A stretch of DNA of 64,000 nt from Candidatus Nitrospira allomarina (GTDB lineage Bacteria; Nitrospirota; Nitrospiria; Nitrospirales; UBA8639): positions 1,857,001-1,921,000 of the forward strand of contig NZ_CP116967.1 of NCBI RefSeq assembly GCF_032050975.1, given 5' to 3'. Below the pieces are notes generated by a model. The model saw nothing but the letters and a program-made list of their open reading frames with translations. It was not told the origin of the DNA and did not search any database. Of the stretch, positions 49,060 through 64,000 are shown piece after piece; the stretch's first letter is position 1; every line of letters begins with the position of its first letter. Made by a program: the position numbers and the translations under genes.

Positions 49060-49273
49060 GAAGGGTCGCCTGTTAGGCTGCACAGCATTTCCCCCCATGA
49101 AGAGTTGTCTGGCTGGTGCCGTGAGTGCGTTGGTGAGGAAGTGGCGCCAATAATCGCCCCGCTTTTGAAGGGTTGACGTTAGGGAAACCTTGCCAAAAGA
49201 TATCGATATCGGGTTTATTATCTAAATACTCCCTGTGGTTTTTCCCATTTTTTGCGGCAGGGTGAAGGTAATT

Positions 49274-51220
49274 GTGGCCACTTTTGAACGACTCCATCAC
49301 TTGCTCGAACAGTCTTTGAGAGATTTTCAAGCTGAATCGAGTGACCTTTCCGATACGCAAGAGCAGGAACTCACGCAGGCCCTTCACCGATTGAAGGGCC
49401 GACTCACCCAAATTCTTTCGACAACTTCCGAGCCACCCCCTCTTGCCAATTTACTTTCGGTTCGCGATCAGACGGTTTCGCTTCCCGCTCGGATTACTCT
49501 CCCCGAACCATCTCAGATCCATTTCGTGACTTCCTGTGATGGTACAATCCTCATGGCAAATGAGGTGGGGAGTCATATCCTGGGGATGGATCTGGCAGAA
49601 ATAGGGCAGGTGTCCATTGCCGATTATGTTGCTCATGAGGAATGGAAGATTCTTCGAGGCCATCTTTGTGCGATTGATGCTACTCCGAAGATACTGAATA
49701 GAGTGCTGACAATTCTCCCAACAGGGAGACCATCGCAAAAGATCCTATGTGTGGTCGTGCCCATGCTTGATCAGTCGCAGAAGGTGGTCGCGTGGCATTG
49801 GGGATTGACTCCGGAGGCGGAATCCTCTTCCGTTCAGCCTTTTATCCAATTGGTGAAGAGTCTCGAATCCCAACTAATTGCCGGTCAGAGCGTGGATATG
49901 TGTCTGACGCAGATTTGTGATGGCCTTGTGCGGATTTTTGGTTTTGCTTTTGTGTGGCTGACTACTATGGGAAAGGGATGTGCGCCCCAGTTACGCGCAC
50001 ATGCGATGACTGGGGAGTTTGATTGGGAGACGCAAGGGACTCTGTGGTGGAGCCAGGTTTCGCAGCAAGGGGAGCTAATTCAGGCCTGCGAGGGTTCTGA
50101 AATATCACTACTTTCTCCGTGCTGTCCGTCCACAAGTCCCATGGCCTGGTCTCCGCCTGGATTCCGGTGTCATCAAACCTGGGGTGTCCCACTGGCTTTG
50201 GATGAGGATTGTTTCGGTATGCTGGTGGTGTGTTCTGAAGGTCCACAGCCGGTTGATCCGACGGTGCTTGGGTGGTTGCAAGTATTAGGTTGTGAGATCG
50301 AACGGTTGATGGCACGTGGAAGACAGCTGGATCTTTGGCGATTGCAAAGTGTGGCTATGGGCTCCGTATTTGATCCCGTCTGTGTGACAGATGCGCAAGG
50401 TCGTTTGGAATGGGGGAATGATGCCTATGCGGCCTTGCGTGGTTCCTCGATTCAATCGTTGTTGGGTTCTCCGTTGAATTCGTTCCCTCATGAGGAACTC
50501 CAAGACAGAATGTCCCTGTCAGATCCCTCTGCCCAAGAGTTCAGTTACCTAAAGACCGAGGTGATGCAAACGGGAAGCAATGGCCAATCTCTGGTTTTCG
50601 AGCAAGTGGTTACTCCTTTGCTCAATGATCAGGGGGACCCAATACATTTTGTCGTGATGTTGCATGATGTGACCGCTCGAAAGACACAAGAACTCCTGAT
50701 GAAGCATCATGCCTATTACGATCCGTTAACCGATCTCCCAAATCGAATTATGTTTAAAGATCGCCTAGAACAGTCGTTGGCGCAAGCCAGGCGAAATGGG
50801 ACCTTACTGGCATTATTCTTTTTGGATCTCGATAATTTTAAAACTATCAATGATTATCATGGACATCAAACCGGAGACCGTGTATTGCGTATCGTAGCGG
50901 AGCGGTTAGCAACTTGTGTGCGATCAACCGATACCGTCGCCCGATTGTGCGGGGATGAATTTACCGTTATTCTTCAAGGGCTTGAACATATTCAGGATAT
51001 TCGTCAGGTGGCCCTGAAAATTTTAGAATGTCTTATTCCGCCCATTCGATTGGGAAAAGAAAAAATCCCTATACAGATTAGTATTGGAATTTCCGTCTAT
51101 CCCAAAGATTCCACGGATCCCCATCGGTTGGTGGAAATTGCCGATCAGGCAATGTATCGGGCCAAAGAACGTGGTGGACAGTGCTGGTATTTTGCCACCC
51201 CTGAATGGAATGATGAATAA
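49274..51220 (+). CDS. Diguanylate cyclase with PAS/GAF sensor regions and a CGDEF active site
   Basis: About 648 residues from GTG 49274, with GAAGG upstream; GTG 49235 or 49262 are alternatives. A helical N-terminus is followed by a PAS-like region (HFVTSCDGTILMANEVG), a GAF-like region around 200-350, a second PAS (DPVCVTDAQGRLEWGNDAYAAL) and a C-terminal GGDEF domain. In the latter the signature reads CGDEF (TGC codon at 50948). The allosteric I-site RxxD (RSTD) is intact, eight residues upstream. It would make c-di-GMP from GTP if the Gly-to-Cys change is tolerated. No transmembrane span is present. A c-di-GMP riboswitch lies 7.4 kb downstream in this window. Confidence 0.86.
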   Translation: MATFERLHHLLEQSLRDFQAESSDLSDTQEQELTQALHRLKGRLTQILSTTSEPPPLANLLSVRDQTVSLPARITLPEPSQIHFVTSCDGTILMANEVGSHILGMDLAEIGQVSIADYVAHEEWKILRGHLCAIDATPKILNRVLTILPTGRPSQKILCVVVPMLDQSQKVVAWHWGLTPEAESSSVQPFIQLVKSLESQLIAGQSVDMCLTQICDGLVRIFGFAFVWLTTMGKGCAPQLRAHAMTGEFDWETQGTLWWSQVSQQGELIQACEGSEISLLSPCCPSTSPMAWSPPGFRCHQTWGVPLALDEDCFGMLVVCSEGPQPVDPTVLGWLQVLGCEIERLMARGRQLDLWRLQSVAMGSVFDPVCVTDAQGRLEWGNDAYAALRGSSIQSLLGSPLNSFPHEELQDRMSLSDPSAQEFSYLKTEVMQTGSNGQSLVFEQVVTPLLNDQGDPIHFVVMLHDVTARKTQELLMKHHAYYDPLTDLPNRIMFKDRLEQSLAQARRNGTLLALFFLDLDNFKTINDYHGHQTGDRVLRIVAERLATCVRSTDTVARLCGDEFTVILQGLEHIQDIRQVALKILECLIPPIRLGKEKIPIQISIGISVYPKDSTDPHRLVEIADQAMYRAKERGGQCWYFATPEWNDE

Positions 51221-58020: not shown

Positions 58021-58644
58021 TTATTTCCCTCGGTTCTGAATTTGGTCACTGGTGTGCGGATACAGAGCGCCCTGGTAAATAGAACCTATAAAAAATTCCA
58101 ACTGATCTAACCCCATCGTTCAATGGGGTGTTCATTGTTGGAGTTAAAGTAAGAAAGGGCATTGGAAATGGCCCGGATATTATAGACTGGGCAATCGTGA
58201 AGGTGCCTTGAAGTCTTCGATCGAAGGTCTTTTCGGGATATTTCGTTGTTATCTTGAAAATGTGTCAAAGTTTCCTTTGTGAAAAATCCTCATTCATCAC
58301 CTTGACCAAAGAGAGGAGGCAGCAATCGCTCTTCACATTCCGTTTGAAGTTTCACGGAGAATTTCTCCAATTTCCATTAGTCTCACTCCTCACGTTTCCT
58401 CAGGTGCATTCCATCCAAAAATTTAAGCTGTTCTGGACAATTTCGATCTCCTTGGTCAACAAAGGGAGGTAAACCATTGTACCGGTAAACAATATGAAAC
58501 ATATTCAACAAAAAACCATCGGCAAGTTTTCCCTGAAGAGGTCGATAATGAAGCATGAAAACAAAGAGTCACAGAATACGAAATGGAAAATTTTCTTGGG
58601 TCTATGAGCATTTATTCATGACCATGAAACATGGATTCGGTCGG
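58021..58644. other. Intergenic leader region upstream of the Tad locus riboswitch
   Basis: About 620 bp between the divergent PAP2 gene and the riboswitch. No convincing gene was seen; short frames lack coding character. The promoter of the pilus operon should lie here, but no strong sigma70 or sigma54 site stands out by eye. Confidence 0.4.
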
Positions 58645-58738
58645 GTGCCCCTTCCCGATAAGGGCGAACACGTCGAAATGCGTGGGCGCAAAACCACGGG
58701 TCAGGGTTGGTCCCTGATAGCCGGGTTGCCGAAGGCAC
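58645..58738 (+). promoter_or_regulatory. Cyclic di-GMP-I (GEMM-I) riboswitch aptamer
   Basis: All elements of the GEMM-I aptamer occur in order. P1 is closed by GTGCC (58645-58649) with GGCAC (58734-58738) and TTC with GAA. Then follow AGGGCGAAC; a P2 stem CACG/CGTG capped by a GAAA tetraloop; the tetraloop receptor GGGCGCAAAACCACGGGTC; a perfect P3 hairpin TCAGGG-TTGGT-CCCTGA; and TAGCCGGGTTGCCG. It ends 90 bp before the first Flp pilin, so c-di-GMP should control pilin expression. The expression platform is not obvious: a 7-bp stem follows but no T-run. An on- or off-switch cannot be decided by eye. Confidence 0.88.
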
Positions 58739-58828
58739 GGAGAGCCAAGGGGCAACGTCTGCGTCAGAATTTTCCGGGCAGTCTGGCGTAACGAAAGTAT
58801 TTACCTTCGCCCGTTAAGGAGATGCGCT

Positions 58829-59002
58829 ATGGTTAACCAAGTAATGCGTTTCGTGAATGATGATGAGGGAGCCACCGCGATTGAGTACGGTTTGTTAGCT
58901 GCTTTGATTGCCGCAGTGATTGTCACGGCCGTGACTGCTGTAGGGACTGCGCTCAGCGGTACCTTTACTACGATTTCTACCAGTGTTGCGGCTCCGAGCT
59001 AA
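58829..59002 (+). CDS. flp: Flp/Fap-type pilin 1
   Basis: The protein has 57 residues; AAGGAG lies eight bases before the ATG. A short basic/polar leader ends in Gly before ATAIEYGLLAALIAA, the Flp prepilin cleavage site with the conserved Glu5-Tyr6, followed by one hydrophobic helix and a Ser/Thr-rich tail. After cleavage by the TadV/CpaA-type peptidase encoded at 62107 it would be the main pilus subunit. First gene after the c-di-GMP riboswitch. Confidence 0.92.
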   Translation: MVNQVMRFVNDDEGATAIEYGLLAALIAAVIVTAVTAVGTALSGTFTTISTSVAAPS

Positions 59003-59033
59003 GTGAGACCTCCTTCCCGCAGTTGATGATTAG

Positions 59034-59100
59034 AAGTGCCGTTCCCGATAGAAGTTTATCGGGGCGGTACTTCGGCGGGAAGCCGCCTCTGAATGGCGGC
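59034..59100 (+). terminator. Pair of strong stem-loops between the two pilin genes
   Basis: Stem-loop 1: AAGTGCCG (59034-59041) with CGGTACTT (59065-59072) plus inner CCCGATA/TATCGGG, fifteen pairs with one wobble. Stem-loop 2: GCCGCC (59082-59087) with GGCGGC (59095-59100), followed by GCAGTTTT. The second may be a weak terminator; the first looks like a protective 3' end for an abundant pilin mRNA, uncoupling it from the downstream genes. Confidence 0.55.
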
Positions 59101-59153
59101 GCAGTTTTGAGAGGTGACGCGAAGGTCAGGTAAAGGATAGGGAGGCCAGCATC

Positions 59154-59357
59154 ATGCAGACAATTCTCCTGAATCATTGTCATCAATGGGTAAAAAACTT
59201 CCTCGTTGATGAAGAAGGTGCCACGGCAATTGAATACGCACTCTTGGCCTCACTGATCGGTGCCACGGCATTGAGTGCTCAAGCAGCTTTGGGAAATGCG
59301 GTTGGGAACATGTATACGCAAGTCATGGGTGTCATCGCGGGGGCCTTGGGGAGTTAG
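59154..59357 (+). CDS. flp: Flp/Fap-type pilin 2
   Basis: The protein has 67 residues. The leader is longer than in pilin 1 (MQTILLNHCHQWVKNFLVDEEG), with cleavage before ATAIEYALLASLIG; Glu5 and Tyr6 are conserved. The C-terminal part (NAVGNMYTQVMGVIAGALGS) differs from that of pilin 1, so the two are diverged paralogues, perhaps major and minor subunits. It follows the intergenic stem-loops and precedes tadE by about 250 bp. Confidence 0.9.
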   Translation: MQTILLNHCHQWVKNFLVDEEGATAIEYALLASLIGATALSAQAALGNAVGNMYTQVMGVIAGALGS

Positions 59358-59604: not shown

Positions 59605-60030
59605 ATGAGTGAGCACCGAATCAAACAAGTACTAAAGCTGAGACAATCCGAGCGTGGCTCGACGGCGGTAGAGTTTGCTCTCATTCTACCGATTCTTGCG
59701 TCACTTGCATTTGGAGCGATCGATTTTGGGCGCATGTTGTGGTTTAAGGAAGTTTTGGTGAATGCGACCCGTGTGGGAGCGCGCCAGGGGACATTATTTG
59801 CTTCGGGCAATGGCCAGGCAGAAATTGAAGCAGCCATCACGGCTTCTCTTGCAGCGGGAGGGGTGGATCCATCAGGGCTCTCGGTGGTGGTTAATGGGGT
59901 CGGAAGCCCACAGGGACAGCCGTTAAATGTGGTGTCTACCATCCCCTGGAATTATTTTGTCATCGATAAACTCATTCCTGCGATTTCGACTCCCAACCTA
60001 CAAGCCTCTGTAACCATGATGATGGAATAA
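59605..60030 (+). CDS. tadE: TadE-like minor pseudopilin
   Basis: The protein has 141 residues. The N-terminus RGSTAVEFALILPILASLAFGAIDFGRM is the TadE signature: a prepilin-like site before STAVEF and a single membrane helix, then a periplasmic domain. TadE-type pseudopilins assist Flp pilus assembly. It precedes the TadG-like gene by about 50 bp. Confidence 0.9.
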   Translation: MSEHRIKQVLKLRQSERGSTAVEFALILPILASLAFGAIDFGRMLWFKEVLVNATRVGARQGTLFASGNGQAEIEAAITASLAAGGVDPSGLSVVVNGVGSPQGQPLNVVSTIPWNYFVIDKLIPAISTPNLQASVTMMME

Positions 60031-60080
60031 GGCGAGGTGGAATGTCTTGTTCAAATCTTCAATGTAACGGAGAAGCGAAT

Positions 60081-61190
60081 ATGTGGAAAAAACAACGTTG
60101 GTCCATTGTCTCACCGCTCTTGAACCAACGGGGCGTCGCGGCAATCAATGGGGCGTTTATGGCGGTCGCAATGGGCATCATGGCAGGTGTGACGATTGAT
60201 GTCGGGCATGCCTTGCTCACACAAAATGAATTGCACAATGCCTCGGATGCCGCCGCGCTGGCCGCTGCGAGACAATTGGGTGTGACCTATCTTACCTTGA
60301 CCATCGCAGAGCAGCAGGACATGGGACGGGCACTCACTGGCAATGAACAATCACAAGTAACTGCTCAGGCGACTGCTGCGGCATTTGCCAACAGTGCTTC
60401 AGATGTCAGTAACTTGTCTCTTTCGCAGGGAGATGTTGAGTTTGGGATATGGGATTTCAATGCGCAGACGTTCAACCCAACGGTGAACCGGCCGAATGCC
60501 ATTCGCGCGACTGTCCGACGTGATGGTGCGGCCAATGGTGCGATATCGACATTTTTTGCCGGTATGTTAGGTATGAGTACTATGAATATTTCCACCAGTT
60601 CGATTGCTGCATTAGGGACTTCAGGAGGACCTGTCCCACCGGGAGTGGCCGATGTGCCGTTTGCAATTTCCACTAACTGGTTCAACGGAGTCGCCAACTG
60701 CGATGGGGGTATACAATTTTCTCCGACTGGGCCGAATGGCTGTGCGGGATGGCACGTTTTTGATCAGAATCCGGCTAATGCGAATACGCTCCGAAATACT
60801 ATTGATGGGTTGAAAGATGGAAGCTATCAAAGTCCAGGGATCATCCCAGGGCAGACTCACTTTACGTTTACCGGTGGAGAAGTTGCTTCTGCCTTTCCCA
60901 ATCTGATCGATCTCTGGGATGCGAAGAAACAATGGAATAGTGATACTGGACAGTATGAATGGGATATCAATCTACCGGTATATCAAGATGGAGGATCTTG
61001 TAGTAATCCCAGTGGTTCTATCACCATTGTGGGGTATGCTAAAGCGGTGGTGACCAACGTCAAGAAAAAGGATATTCAAGCGGAAGTGAAATGTGATGGT
61101 TTCTTTGATGGAACGCCAAATCCCAACCAGGCTGGTGGGGGCGCTGGGGCGCTTCAGCCCTTATCGGTTTATCCAAGATTAGTGTCCTGA
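60081..61190 (+). CDS. tadG: TadG-like pilus assembly protein
   Basis: About 369 residues from ATG 60081, with GGAG eight bases upstream; ATG 60042 is an alternative. The start QRGVAAINGAFMAVAMGIMAGVTIDVGHALLTQNELHNASDAAALAAARQLG is the typical TadG/TadE-like N-terminal helix and 'DAAALAAA' block. The rest is a Gly/Asn-rich extracytoplasmic region without a visible von Willebrand (MIDAS) domain. It would be membrane-anchored in Tad pilus assembly. Confidence 0.85.
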   Translation: MWKKQRWSIVSPLLNQRGVAAINGAFMAVAMGIMAGVTIDVGHALLTQNELHNASDAAALAAARQLGVTYLTLTIAEQQDMGRALTGNEQSQVTAQATAAAFANSASDVSNLSLSQGDVEFGIWDFNAQTFNPTVNRPNAIRATVRRDGAANGAISTFFAGMLGMSTMNISTSSIAALGTSGGPVPPGVADVPFAISTNWFNGVANCDGGIQFSPTGPNGCAGWHVFDQNPANANTLRNTIDGLKDGSYQSPGIIPGQTHFTFTGGEVASAFPNLIDLWDAKKQWNSDTGQYEWDINLPVYQDGGSCSNPSGSITIVGYAKAVVTNVKKKDIQAEVKCDGFFDGTPNPNQAGGGAGALQPLSVYPRLVS

Positions 61191-62106: not shown

Positions 62107-62640
62107 ATGAATATGGAGACATTTCTTCCATTATTTGGATTAGCAATAGGGTTAGTGGTGGCAGCGGTTACGGATGTTCGGGAAGGGCGGATTCCCAATT
62201 GGCTGACGGGTTCCTTGGCCGTCTTTGGAATTGGAGTGAATAGTATGGAGTATGGTTGGGAGGGATTCCTGTTTAGTCTCGGCGGTCTGATCATGGGGTT
62301 GGTCTGCTTGATATTTTTTTATTTGAAAGGTGGGATGGGCGCCGGAGACGTGAAATTGCTTGGAGCGATTGGAACAATCCTGGGTCCGGGTCAGGTGGTC
62401 TTTGCGTTTGCGTTTGCAGCCATGTTGGGGGGGCTATATAGCATAGCTCTGTTGTCCACTCAGGGTGGCATGCGCCACGCCTGGGATCGGATGTTTCTCC
62501 TTTTGTCGACTCTGAAGGTGATCAGGACTATTCCGGTTTCGGGCGCACAAACTCCCACCGAGCCAAAGTTACGGTATGCCCTAGTTTTAGGGCTGGGTAC
62601 TGTGATCGCCAAAACGTTGTTTTATTATGACGTGTTGTAA
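62107..62640 (+). CDS. cpaA: Prepilin peptidase TadV/CpaA (A24 family)
   Basis: The protein has 177 residues and six or so membrane spans. The aspartyl protease motifs are intact: the first Asp in VTDVREGRIPN and the second in GMGAGDVKLLGAIG (GxGD). It lacks the N-terminal methyltransferase domain of PilD, as usual for Tad loci. It would remove the leaders of the Flp pilins and TadE encoded upstream. CpaB follows after ~180 bp. Confidence 0.92.
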   Translation: MNMETFLPLFGLAIGLVVAAVTDVREGRIPNWLTGSLAVFGIGVNSMEYGWEGFLFSLGGLIMGLVCLIFFYLKGGMGAGDVKLLGAIGTILGPGQVVFAFAFAAMLGGLYSIALLSTQGGMRHAWDRMFLLLSTLKVIRTIPVSGAQTPTEPKLRYALVLGLGTVIAKTLFYYDVL

Positions 62641-62819
62641 CTCGTGTTCGCTTGGTTCTACGTGTTGAAAATGAGCAATCGGAGAAGATTCTTTACGTTG
62701 TCTATTAAGAATGGCATTTGCCATCCGATATGCAGAGGTAGACAAATTGAAACCTCAGGATTGCTAGGTATGAATAAAAATTTCGGTTTGGATTTGGTGA
62801 AGAAGGGGGAGGAAGTCTC

Positions 62820-63662
62820 ATGGGACAAAAACGGCCACTCGTATTTTTAGGAATCGCGATGATTATTGCCCTGGTGACGACCGTCATGGTGTATCGGTGG
62901 CTTCAGGGACAACGAATGATCGAAACCGATGCTCCTGAAGTAGTGATGGAAGGTGTGAGTGTCGCAGTGGCCAGTGCCGATATCCCCTGGGGGACTCCAC
63001 TCGGTGAAAAAGCCGTTCGAGTAATGATGTATCCTGAAGAAGGTGTCCCCGTAGGTCACTTTAAGGACACGGCATCTTTAAATGGTCGAGTCGTGCTGAC
63101 AAACCTGAAAAAAAATGAGCCAATTTTAGAATCGAAATTGGCTCCGATTGATGTGAAAACGGGCGGAGTATCCGCGGTCATGGATCCCAATAAACGGGCA
63201 ATGGCTGTAAAAGTGAATGAAGTGGTTGGCCTTCCGGGATTTGTGCAGCCAGGAGATCGGGTTGATGTGATGGCGACCTTTGAGGATCCCAGGTCTAAAA
63301 AGAAGGACAATGGCGGTGGGAAGGAGGAGGTGACCAAGGTCGTCCTTGAGAACACGCTCGTGTTAGCGATCGATACGCAAATGGAACGATCAGCTGGAGA
63401 GGAAAAGCCCACTCCCGTAAAAGTCATTACGCTGGAGGTGTCGTTGGAGGAGGCCGAAAGGTTGGCCATGGCCGAAAATGGTGGGAAGTTACGATTGGCC
63501 TTACGAAGTCCACTGAATCCTGAGGTGAAGAAAACCAAAGGTGCCGACTTTAAGGATTTGATGCGTTCCCACCAACTCATTCCTCCGCCGCCCAGAGGGG
63601 GAAAGCCAAAAGAGCAAGTTGAGGTGATCCAGGGGACAACGCGGAAAACGATGAAATTTTAA
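62820..63662 (+). CDS. cpaB: Flp pilus assembly protein CpaB/RcpC
   Basis: The protein has 280 residues; GGGGGAGGAAG precedes the ATG. It has an N-terminal membrane anchor (LVFLGIAMIIALVTTVMVY), then a SAF-like domain (VSVAVASADIPWGTPLGEKAV...GRVVLTNLKKNEPI), then AVKVNEVVGLPGFVQPGDRVDVMATF, the CpaB hallmark. It acts in the periplasm at the pilus secretin. The secretin gene follows. Confidence 0.93.
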   Translation: MGQKRPLVFLGIAMIIALVTTVMVYRWLQGQRMIETDAPEVVMEGVSVAVASADIPWGTPLGEKAVRVMMYPEEGVPVGHFKDTASLNGRVVLTNLKKNEPILESKLAPIDVKTGGVSAVMDPNKRAMAVKVNEVVGLPGFVQPGDRVDVMATFEDPRSKKKDNGGGKEEVTKVVLENTLVLAIDTQMERSAGEEKPTPVKVITLEVSLEEAERLAMAENGGKLRLALRSPLNPEVKKTKGADFKDLMRSHQLIPPPPRGGKPKEQVEVIQGTTRKTMKF

Positions 63663-63708
63663 GAGGGTCGTCGAGAGTGACGCGATGATCGTTAGGAAAG
63701 GTAAGGAT

Positions 63709-64000
63709 ATGAATCAGACTCACGGTTTTCCATTCAGGAGCATGGTGTTGGCTCTGGGCCTGGTCCTTGTGGGCTACACGGGAGCCTTGGGAGAAGGTCT
63801 CACCACCCAAGCGGTCCACGTCAATGAGCCCCAAAGCCTACGACTGACGGTCGGAGAGTCAAAAATTGTGGAGCGGGAGACGGCATTTAAACGTGCGTCG
63901 GTCGCCAATCCTAAAGTGGCGGATCAAATTGTGCTCTCCAGTAAGCAAATATACCTGACCGGAATCGAAGTTGGGACGACGACCCTGACCCTATGGGGTC
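63709..64000 (+). CDS. cpaC: CpaC/RcpA pilus secretin, N-terminal part cut by the window end
   Basis: ATG 63709 with AGGAAAGG upstream; ATG 63685 is in frame too. A signal peptide (SMVLALGLVLVGYTGALG) is followed by the secretin N-terminal region SLRLTVGESKIVERE...RASVANPKVADQIVLSSKQIYLTGIEVGTTTLTLWG, which is the standard start of CpaC/T2SS-like secretins. It is open to the last base; the secretin channel domain lies outside the window. Confidence 0.9.
   Translation, partial: MNQTHGFPFRSMVLALGLVLVGYTGALGEGLTTQAVHVNEPQSLRLTVGESKIVERETAFKRASVANPKVADQIVLSSKQIYLTGIEVGTTTLTLWG

Follow-up and report, generated by a model that had tools for sequence, protein, structure and literature searches.

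A Tad operon in a UBA8639-type member of the Nitrospirales is preceded by an RNA that, judged by its ligand-contact bases, is a canonical c-di-GMP-I (GEMM-I) aptamer, and this aptamer lies inside a conserved upstream open reading frame (uORF) that opens just after an apparent FliA-type promoter and closes within a covarying hairpin beside the ribosome-binding site of the first Flp pilin. The window, by which we mean the whole 64 kb stretch of DNA that was analysed, was taken from a closed genome of 4.55 Mb (positions 1857001-1921000). Compared with named genomes, its CpaB protein matched MAGs of the Nitrospirales, the nearest being UBA8639 at 98%. When searched against Rfam with cmscan at gathering thresholds, it yielded this aptamer as its sole riboswitch (E 3e-13), which is complete and ends 95 nt upstream of the first Flp pilin. 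The first-pass annotation had placed a complete GEMM-I aptamer at this locus and expected a c-di-GMP-I match at 58640-58740, both of which were confirmed by the RF01051 match and by the Tad operon that follows it. Its prediction that a c-di-GMP-I riboswitch controls Flp pilins is also well supported by the covariance model, the ligand-contact residues, and conservation, although it overlooked the FliA-type promoter, the uORF running through the aptamer, the pseudoknotted platform, and a second aptamer ahead of a sigma factor gene. The genes of the operon are arranged in the order flp1, flp2, tadE, tadG, prepilin peptidase, cpaB, secretin, cpaE-like, tadA, tadB, tadC, and a TPR protein gene, which places the pilin, prepilin peptidase, CpaB, secretin, TadZ, TadA, and TadB/C functions of an Flp/Tad operon in a single run (Table 1). 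Approximately 16 kb downstream of the riboswitch, the minus strand encodes an HD-domain protein with DUF3391 (HD-GYP-like; L054:17125-18384), which is a possible c-di-GMP phosphodiesterase.

Table 1. Features of the Flp leader, the Tad operon, and the sigma factor locus (window positions unless marked as genome)
Feature	Position	Strand	Support
Predicted FliA (sigma-28)-type promoter: GCAAGTTT 58522-58529, N11, GTCGATAA 58541-58548	58522-58548	+	conserved in 14 genomes, two genera
uORF, 78 aa, possibly leaderless, through aptamer, ending in P4 3' arm	58555-58791	+	
Closing helix UGCCCCUU 58646-58653 / AAGGGGCA 58747-58754, enclosing the aptamer	58646-58754	+	100% of cells paired, 15 genomes
c-di-GMP-I (GEMM-I) aptamer, G20/A47/C92	58654-58734	+	RF01051 65.6 bits, RF03167 65.6 bits; compensatory changes in P2 and P3
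Hairpin P4, loop CGGGC 58775-58779, with uORF stop codon 58789-58791 inside	58756-58793	+	covariation, 15- and 18-genome alignments
GCCCG 58809-58813, predicted pseudoknot partner of the P4 loop, adjoining Shine-Dalgarno AAGGAG 58816-58821	58809-58821	+	
Flp pilin 1	58829-59002	+	PF04964, 62.3 bits, above cut-off
Flp pilin 2	59154-59357	+	PF04964, 30 bits, slightly below 32.2 cut-off
TadE-like and TadG-like proteins	59605-61190	+	PF07811; PF13400/PF09977
Prepilin peptidase, CpaB/RcpC, start of secretin	62107-64000	+	PF01478, PF16976; PF00263
CpaE-like, TadA ATPase, TadB, TadC, TPR protein	beyond window, same operon		PF13614, PF00437, PF00482 twice, TPR
Aptamer, terminator-like hairpin, and FliA/WhiG sigma factor gene	genome 3555183-3556165	-	

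The genus was sampled with 20 genomes and the aptamer-Flp pair was counted only where the contig permits the test, which excluded G012, for instance, as its contig begins 82 bases ahead of the Flp match. All 15 testable genomes have an aptamer ahead of their first Flp gene, starting ~197 nt before the Flp domain. Other genera of the family likewise have an aptamer before Flp, which is either adjacent, located 500-630 nt away with a small ORF in between, or duplicated, the last being the case for three genera (L091-L093) with two aptamers ~530-560 nt apart and a small ORF between them. At Rfam gathering thresholds, aptamers were detected at none of three second Flp loci inside the family and at none of 17 Flp loci outside of it. 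As the pair is present in every testable genome of this genus and recurs in related genera, yet is absent from the outside loci, we can conclude that the aptamer-Flp association is far beyond chance and is a trait of this family's lineage.

Upstream of the aptamer, the arrangement GCAAGTTT-N11-GTCGATAA-N6-ATG-N84-CGGG is common to 14 genomes (13 of the genus and one of another genus) with no indels and a single base change in one -35 box. The E. coli FliA consensus is TAAAGTTT-N11-GCCGATAA, to which the two halves of the box exhibit a partial fit of 6/8 and 7/8. A scan of the genome allowing up to one mismatch returned 13 box matches versus 4 for the reversed control, with the exact strict pattern occurring in the Flp leader only. 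One-mismatch boxes are located 120 bp upstream of flagellin (PF00669), before a flagellar-rod-like ORF (judged by eye; the fragment gave no Pfam match), and before a Tad-like protein (judged by eye). Given this partial consensus match and its sharing with flagellar genes of the same genome, the box is apparently a FliA-type promoter, and a search of the Flp leader region for a sigma-70 promoter found none. Two to four genomes lack the box or differ upstream, including G002 and G010 of the genus, which are without it. A FliA-type box is also present 10 nt upstream of another aptamer (genome 2463531-2463657), which has C at position 20 and precedes response regulators.

The frame opened by the ATG crosses the entire aptamer. 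Its 29 codons ahead of the aptamer are equal in length in the 14 genomes and contain zero stops, while their BLOSUM score reached 1272, compared with -1173 (sd 752) in column shuffles that ignore phylogeny (0/300). Over the same codons in related genomes, pN/pS was 0.52 in the uORF frame versus 1.28 and 1.19 in the other two frames, and column shuffles, which likewise do not model phylogeny, gave 0.88 (sd 0.145) with 0/200 reaching 0.52. These codon statistics show coding selection on the uORF over the 29 codons before the aptamer. The uORF stretch downstream of the aptamer exhibits no protein-level conservation, and the uORF as a whole has no Pfam or NCBIfam match. In most genomes, stop codons inside the aptamer or shortly beyond it block the remaining two frames. 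The uORF stop is found 34-44 nt ahead of the Flp ATG in 15/15 genomes and falls within the P4 3' arm every time, even where a loop deletion alters the frame. In sister genera, the motif W..EH..[LIM]T.K is retained in a small ORF at the equivalent place.

The RNA around and beyond the aptamer forms a covarying platform. Among 15 genomes, two pairs of the closing helix have undergone compensatory changes (CG to UA and GC to UA), as have pairs of P2, P3, and P4, and the pseudoknot between the P4 loop and the bases preceding the Shine-Dalgarno sequence is paired with one compensatory pair (CGAGCA/UGCUCG as an example). All of the whole-structure measures for these genomes exceed slid controls and also exceed every shuffle, except for pair types (18/500). 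An 18-genome alignment agrees with this structure, its platform alignment being less sure. Across 17 leaders, the complementarity between the loop and the pre-Shine-Dalgarno bases summed to 93 versus 61.6 (sd 3.2) for shuffled loops (0/500). A 5' UCGGG/CCCGA hairpin proposed by RNAalifold is invariant and hence without covariation signal. Rfam was searched for a family covering P4 and the pseudoknot and held none. Another genus has an equivalent hairpin ahead of its Flp genes, in part with no aptamer next to it, which argues that the hairpin/pseudoknot element is separable from the riboswitch. At L101, L102, and L104, the hairpin and its loop/pre-Shine-Dalgarno pseudoknot occur before Flp without an adjacent aptamer and constitute a candidate new cis-regulatory RNA. 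No intrinsic terminator was found on the plus strand between the aptamer and Flp, and terminator matches in the wider region numbered two versus 1.4 expected. A competing switch between P1 and the closing helix was dropped, as the two share no bases.

In the mechanism we propose, transcription would start from the FliA-type promoter, probably right at the uORF AUG, and ribosomes on the uORF would traverse the canonical c-di-GMP-I aptamer and terminate within P4. The hairpin and its pseudoknot at the pre-Shine-Dalgarno bases would limit Flp translation, whereas translation of the uORF would open both, i.e. translational coupling. The bound aptamer could alter either the frequency of ribosome passage or the firmness of the stacking between the closing helix and P4. 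Coupling is indicated by the placement of the uORF stop within P4, as in cases from M. tuberculosis (PMC11260477). Counting against the proposal, a few genomes are without the FliA-type box or diverge upstream, folding gave Shine-Dalgarno access that is independent of the aptamer, and sister genera with tandem aptamers have an earlier stop, located directly after the second aptamer in G061 and G080, or a frameshifted ORF, due to a one-base insertion in G076. On balance, translational control coupled to uORF translation is the likeliest of the readings considered, at about even odds, and we lean only marginally toward the bound aptamer keeping Flp translation low.

A somewhat unlikely alternative is that of an ordinary translational c-di-GMP-I riboswitch acting directly upon P4 and the Flp ribosome-binding site, with the uORF being incidental or encoding a separate small protein. 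Such an arrangement would account for the conserved and covarying aptamer and platform, and the W..EH..LT.K small ORF does persist in genera having a different overlap of the Flp-proximal region. However, the frame, length, and stop position of the uORF are kept in 15/15 genomes, and nearest-neighbour folding found no effect of aptamer state on Shine-Dalgarno accessibility. Thus, no simple switch of the usual kind is visible in the folding model, and alternative pairing between the aptamer and the Shine-Dalgarno sequence was set aside for the same reason. It is improbable that c-di-GMP instead controls transcription of the operon, through Rho-dependent termination upon failed uORF translation rather than through translation initiation. 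A ribosome stalled on the uORF would leave RNA exposed, and one study reports Rho-dependent control involving a riboswitch and a uORF in another bacterium (PMC12810186), but the location of the covarying pairing at the Shine-Dalgarno sequence is a better fit to translation.

The identity of the ligand bears upon all of these readings. Positions 20, 47, and 92 follow Vc2 numbering, and we take the "GGC" of the Rfam name c-di-GMP-I-GGC to denote these three positions, based upon the RF03167 model consensus. RF03167 is the label listed for the window aptamer, with RF01051 tied at the same place, and the score lies above the gathering thresholds of both models (59 and 35 bits, respectively). In the Rfam alignment, however, the base following CGC (position 47) is A in the window versus G in the RF03167 model, and the GGC-variant identity was therefore dropped. 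Position 20 is G rather than the A of cGAMP-type GEMM-I aptamers, and the ligand-contact bases G20, A47, and C92 of RF01051 are all present. Since the bases exhibit the canonical c-di-GMP pattern and the models score equally, the RF03167 label is a misleading near-tie artefact, and c-di-GMP is the expected ligand. That the ligand is cGAMP or another compound, as the top Rfam label and the A20 aptamers elsewhere in the genome might suggest, is very unlikely in view of the G20/A47/C92 bases, the equal RF01051 score, and the GGDEF domains of the genome. Asp occupies the selectivity site in six of the seven, and the Ser/Thr of Hypr (cGAMP) enzymes occurs in 0/6 domains read (L053 excepted), so no Hypr enzyme was seen. 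It is hardly credible that the aptamer, despite lying wholly inside a conserved ORF, is a decaying relic within a protein-coding gene, given its invariant ligand-contact bases, helices that covary across 15-18 genomes, and a downstream ORF half devoid of protein conservation.

The genome contains nine c-di-GMP-I matches above the RF01051 cut-off. Two near-identical aptamers at genome positions 1139946 and 1143022 (L055:3947-4023 and L055:7023-7099) precede paralogues whose fibronectin-III-like domain was assigned by eye and differ at position 20, with A and G, respectively, while both of their counterparts in the relative G001 have G20. This natural G20A pair may differ in ligand, cGAMP versus c-di-GMP. 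Nitrospiraceae-like genomes (f3; L153-L155, L160) have a single c-di-GMP-I aptamer before a flagellar-rod-like protein (by eye). Concerning the source of the signal, the first-pass annotation had suggested that it may be local, due to a diguanylate cyclase encoded 7.4 kb upstream. A PAS/GGDEF protein is indeed present there (49235-51220), but its signature is CGDEF rather than GGDEF, which makes its activity uncertain. As c-di-GMP diffuses and the genome encodes seven GGDEF domain proteins, the notion of a local source is weak.

Two FliA/WhiG sigma factors above cut-off are encoded in the genome, one scoring 264 bits and the other 196 bits (cut-off 189.6). The latter is preceded by a c-di-GMP-I aptamer with G20, A47, and C92, and five additional genomes of the genus share this aptamer-sigma pair, as does one genome of genus g5, where the identity of the sigma factor was judged by eye from translated ORFs. 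A terminator scan of the sigma leader reported none, though a 38-nt stretch folded alone gives a terminator-like hairpin of -15.1 kcal/mol followed by seven U. The placement of this second aptamer suggests a c-di-GMP feed-forward loop onto Tad via the FliA/WhiG sigma factor, with c-di-GMP potentially acting upon Tad twice, in transcription and in translation. The complete scheme, in which the riboswitch works only on a translated, FliA-driven, leaderless uORF ending in a gate that the pseudoknot forms at the ribosome-binding site of Flp, while a second riboswitch sets the FliA/WhiG sigma factor that reads the box, is tentative and, taken as a whole, doubtful.

The Flp leader resembles known RF01051 riboswitches in its complete aptamer, its canonical ligand-contact bases, and its position ahead of a surface-structure gene, but differs from them in its predicted control of Flp/Tad pilins, its location inside a conserved ORF, its lack of a terminator, and its pseudoknotted Shine-Dalgarno platform. 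In the B12 riboswitches of M. tuberculosis metE and ppe2, a translated uORF located inside or beside the aptamer was found experimentally to affect the downstream gene (PMC11260477). The ligand, phylum, and aptamer are different here, and the ORF, which opens at an apparent FliA-type promoter, spans the aptamer in its entirety, the evidence being that of sequence alone. The Tad operon of Bdellovibrio is driven by FliA (PMC5430801). The FliA promoter of that organism has the form TTAAG-N16-CCGATA (PMC3627812), and Bdellovibrio also has a c-di-GMP riboswitch RNA, merRNA, without a conserved downstream ORF (PMC3627812). Control of Tad by a flagellar sigma factor, predicted here, and a c-di-GMP riboswitch RNA in the organism are features in common, but a riboswitch in the Tad leader is not mentioned in either Bdellovibrio report. 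Within a partial coverage of the literature, we found no paper on such c-di-GMP, sigma factor, and Tad regulation in relatives of nitrite oxidisers. There are few descriptions of aptamers located in translated ORFs, and a lineage-wide case would allow the study of a ribosome and a ligand-bound aptamer contending on one RNA. For these floc- and biofilm-forming relatives of nitrite oxidisers, the locus would connect c-di-GMP, a flagellar-type sigma factor, and Tad pili directly through RNA, and the arrangement could link pilus production to the decision between swimming and attachment.
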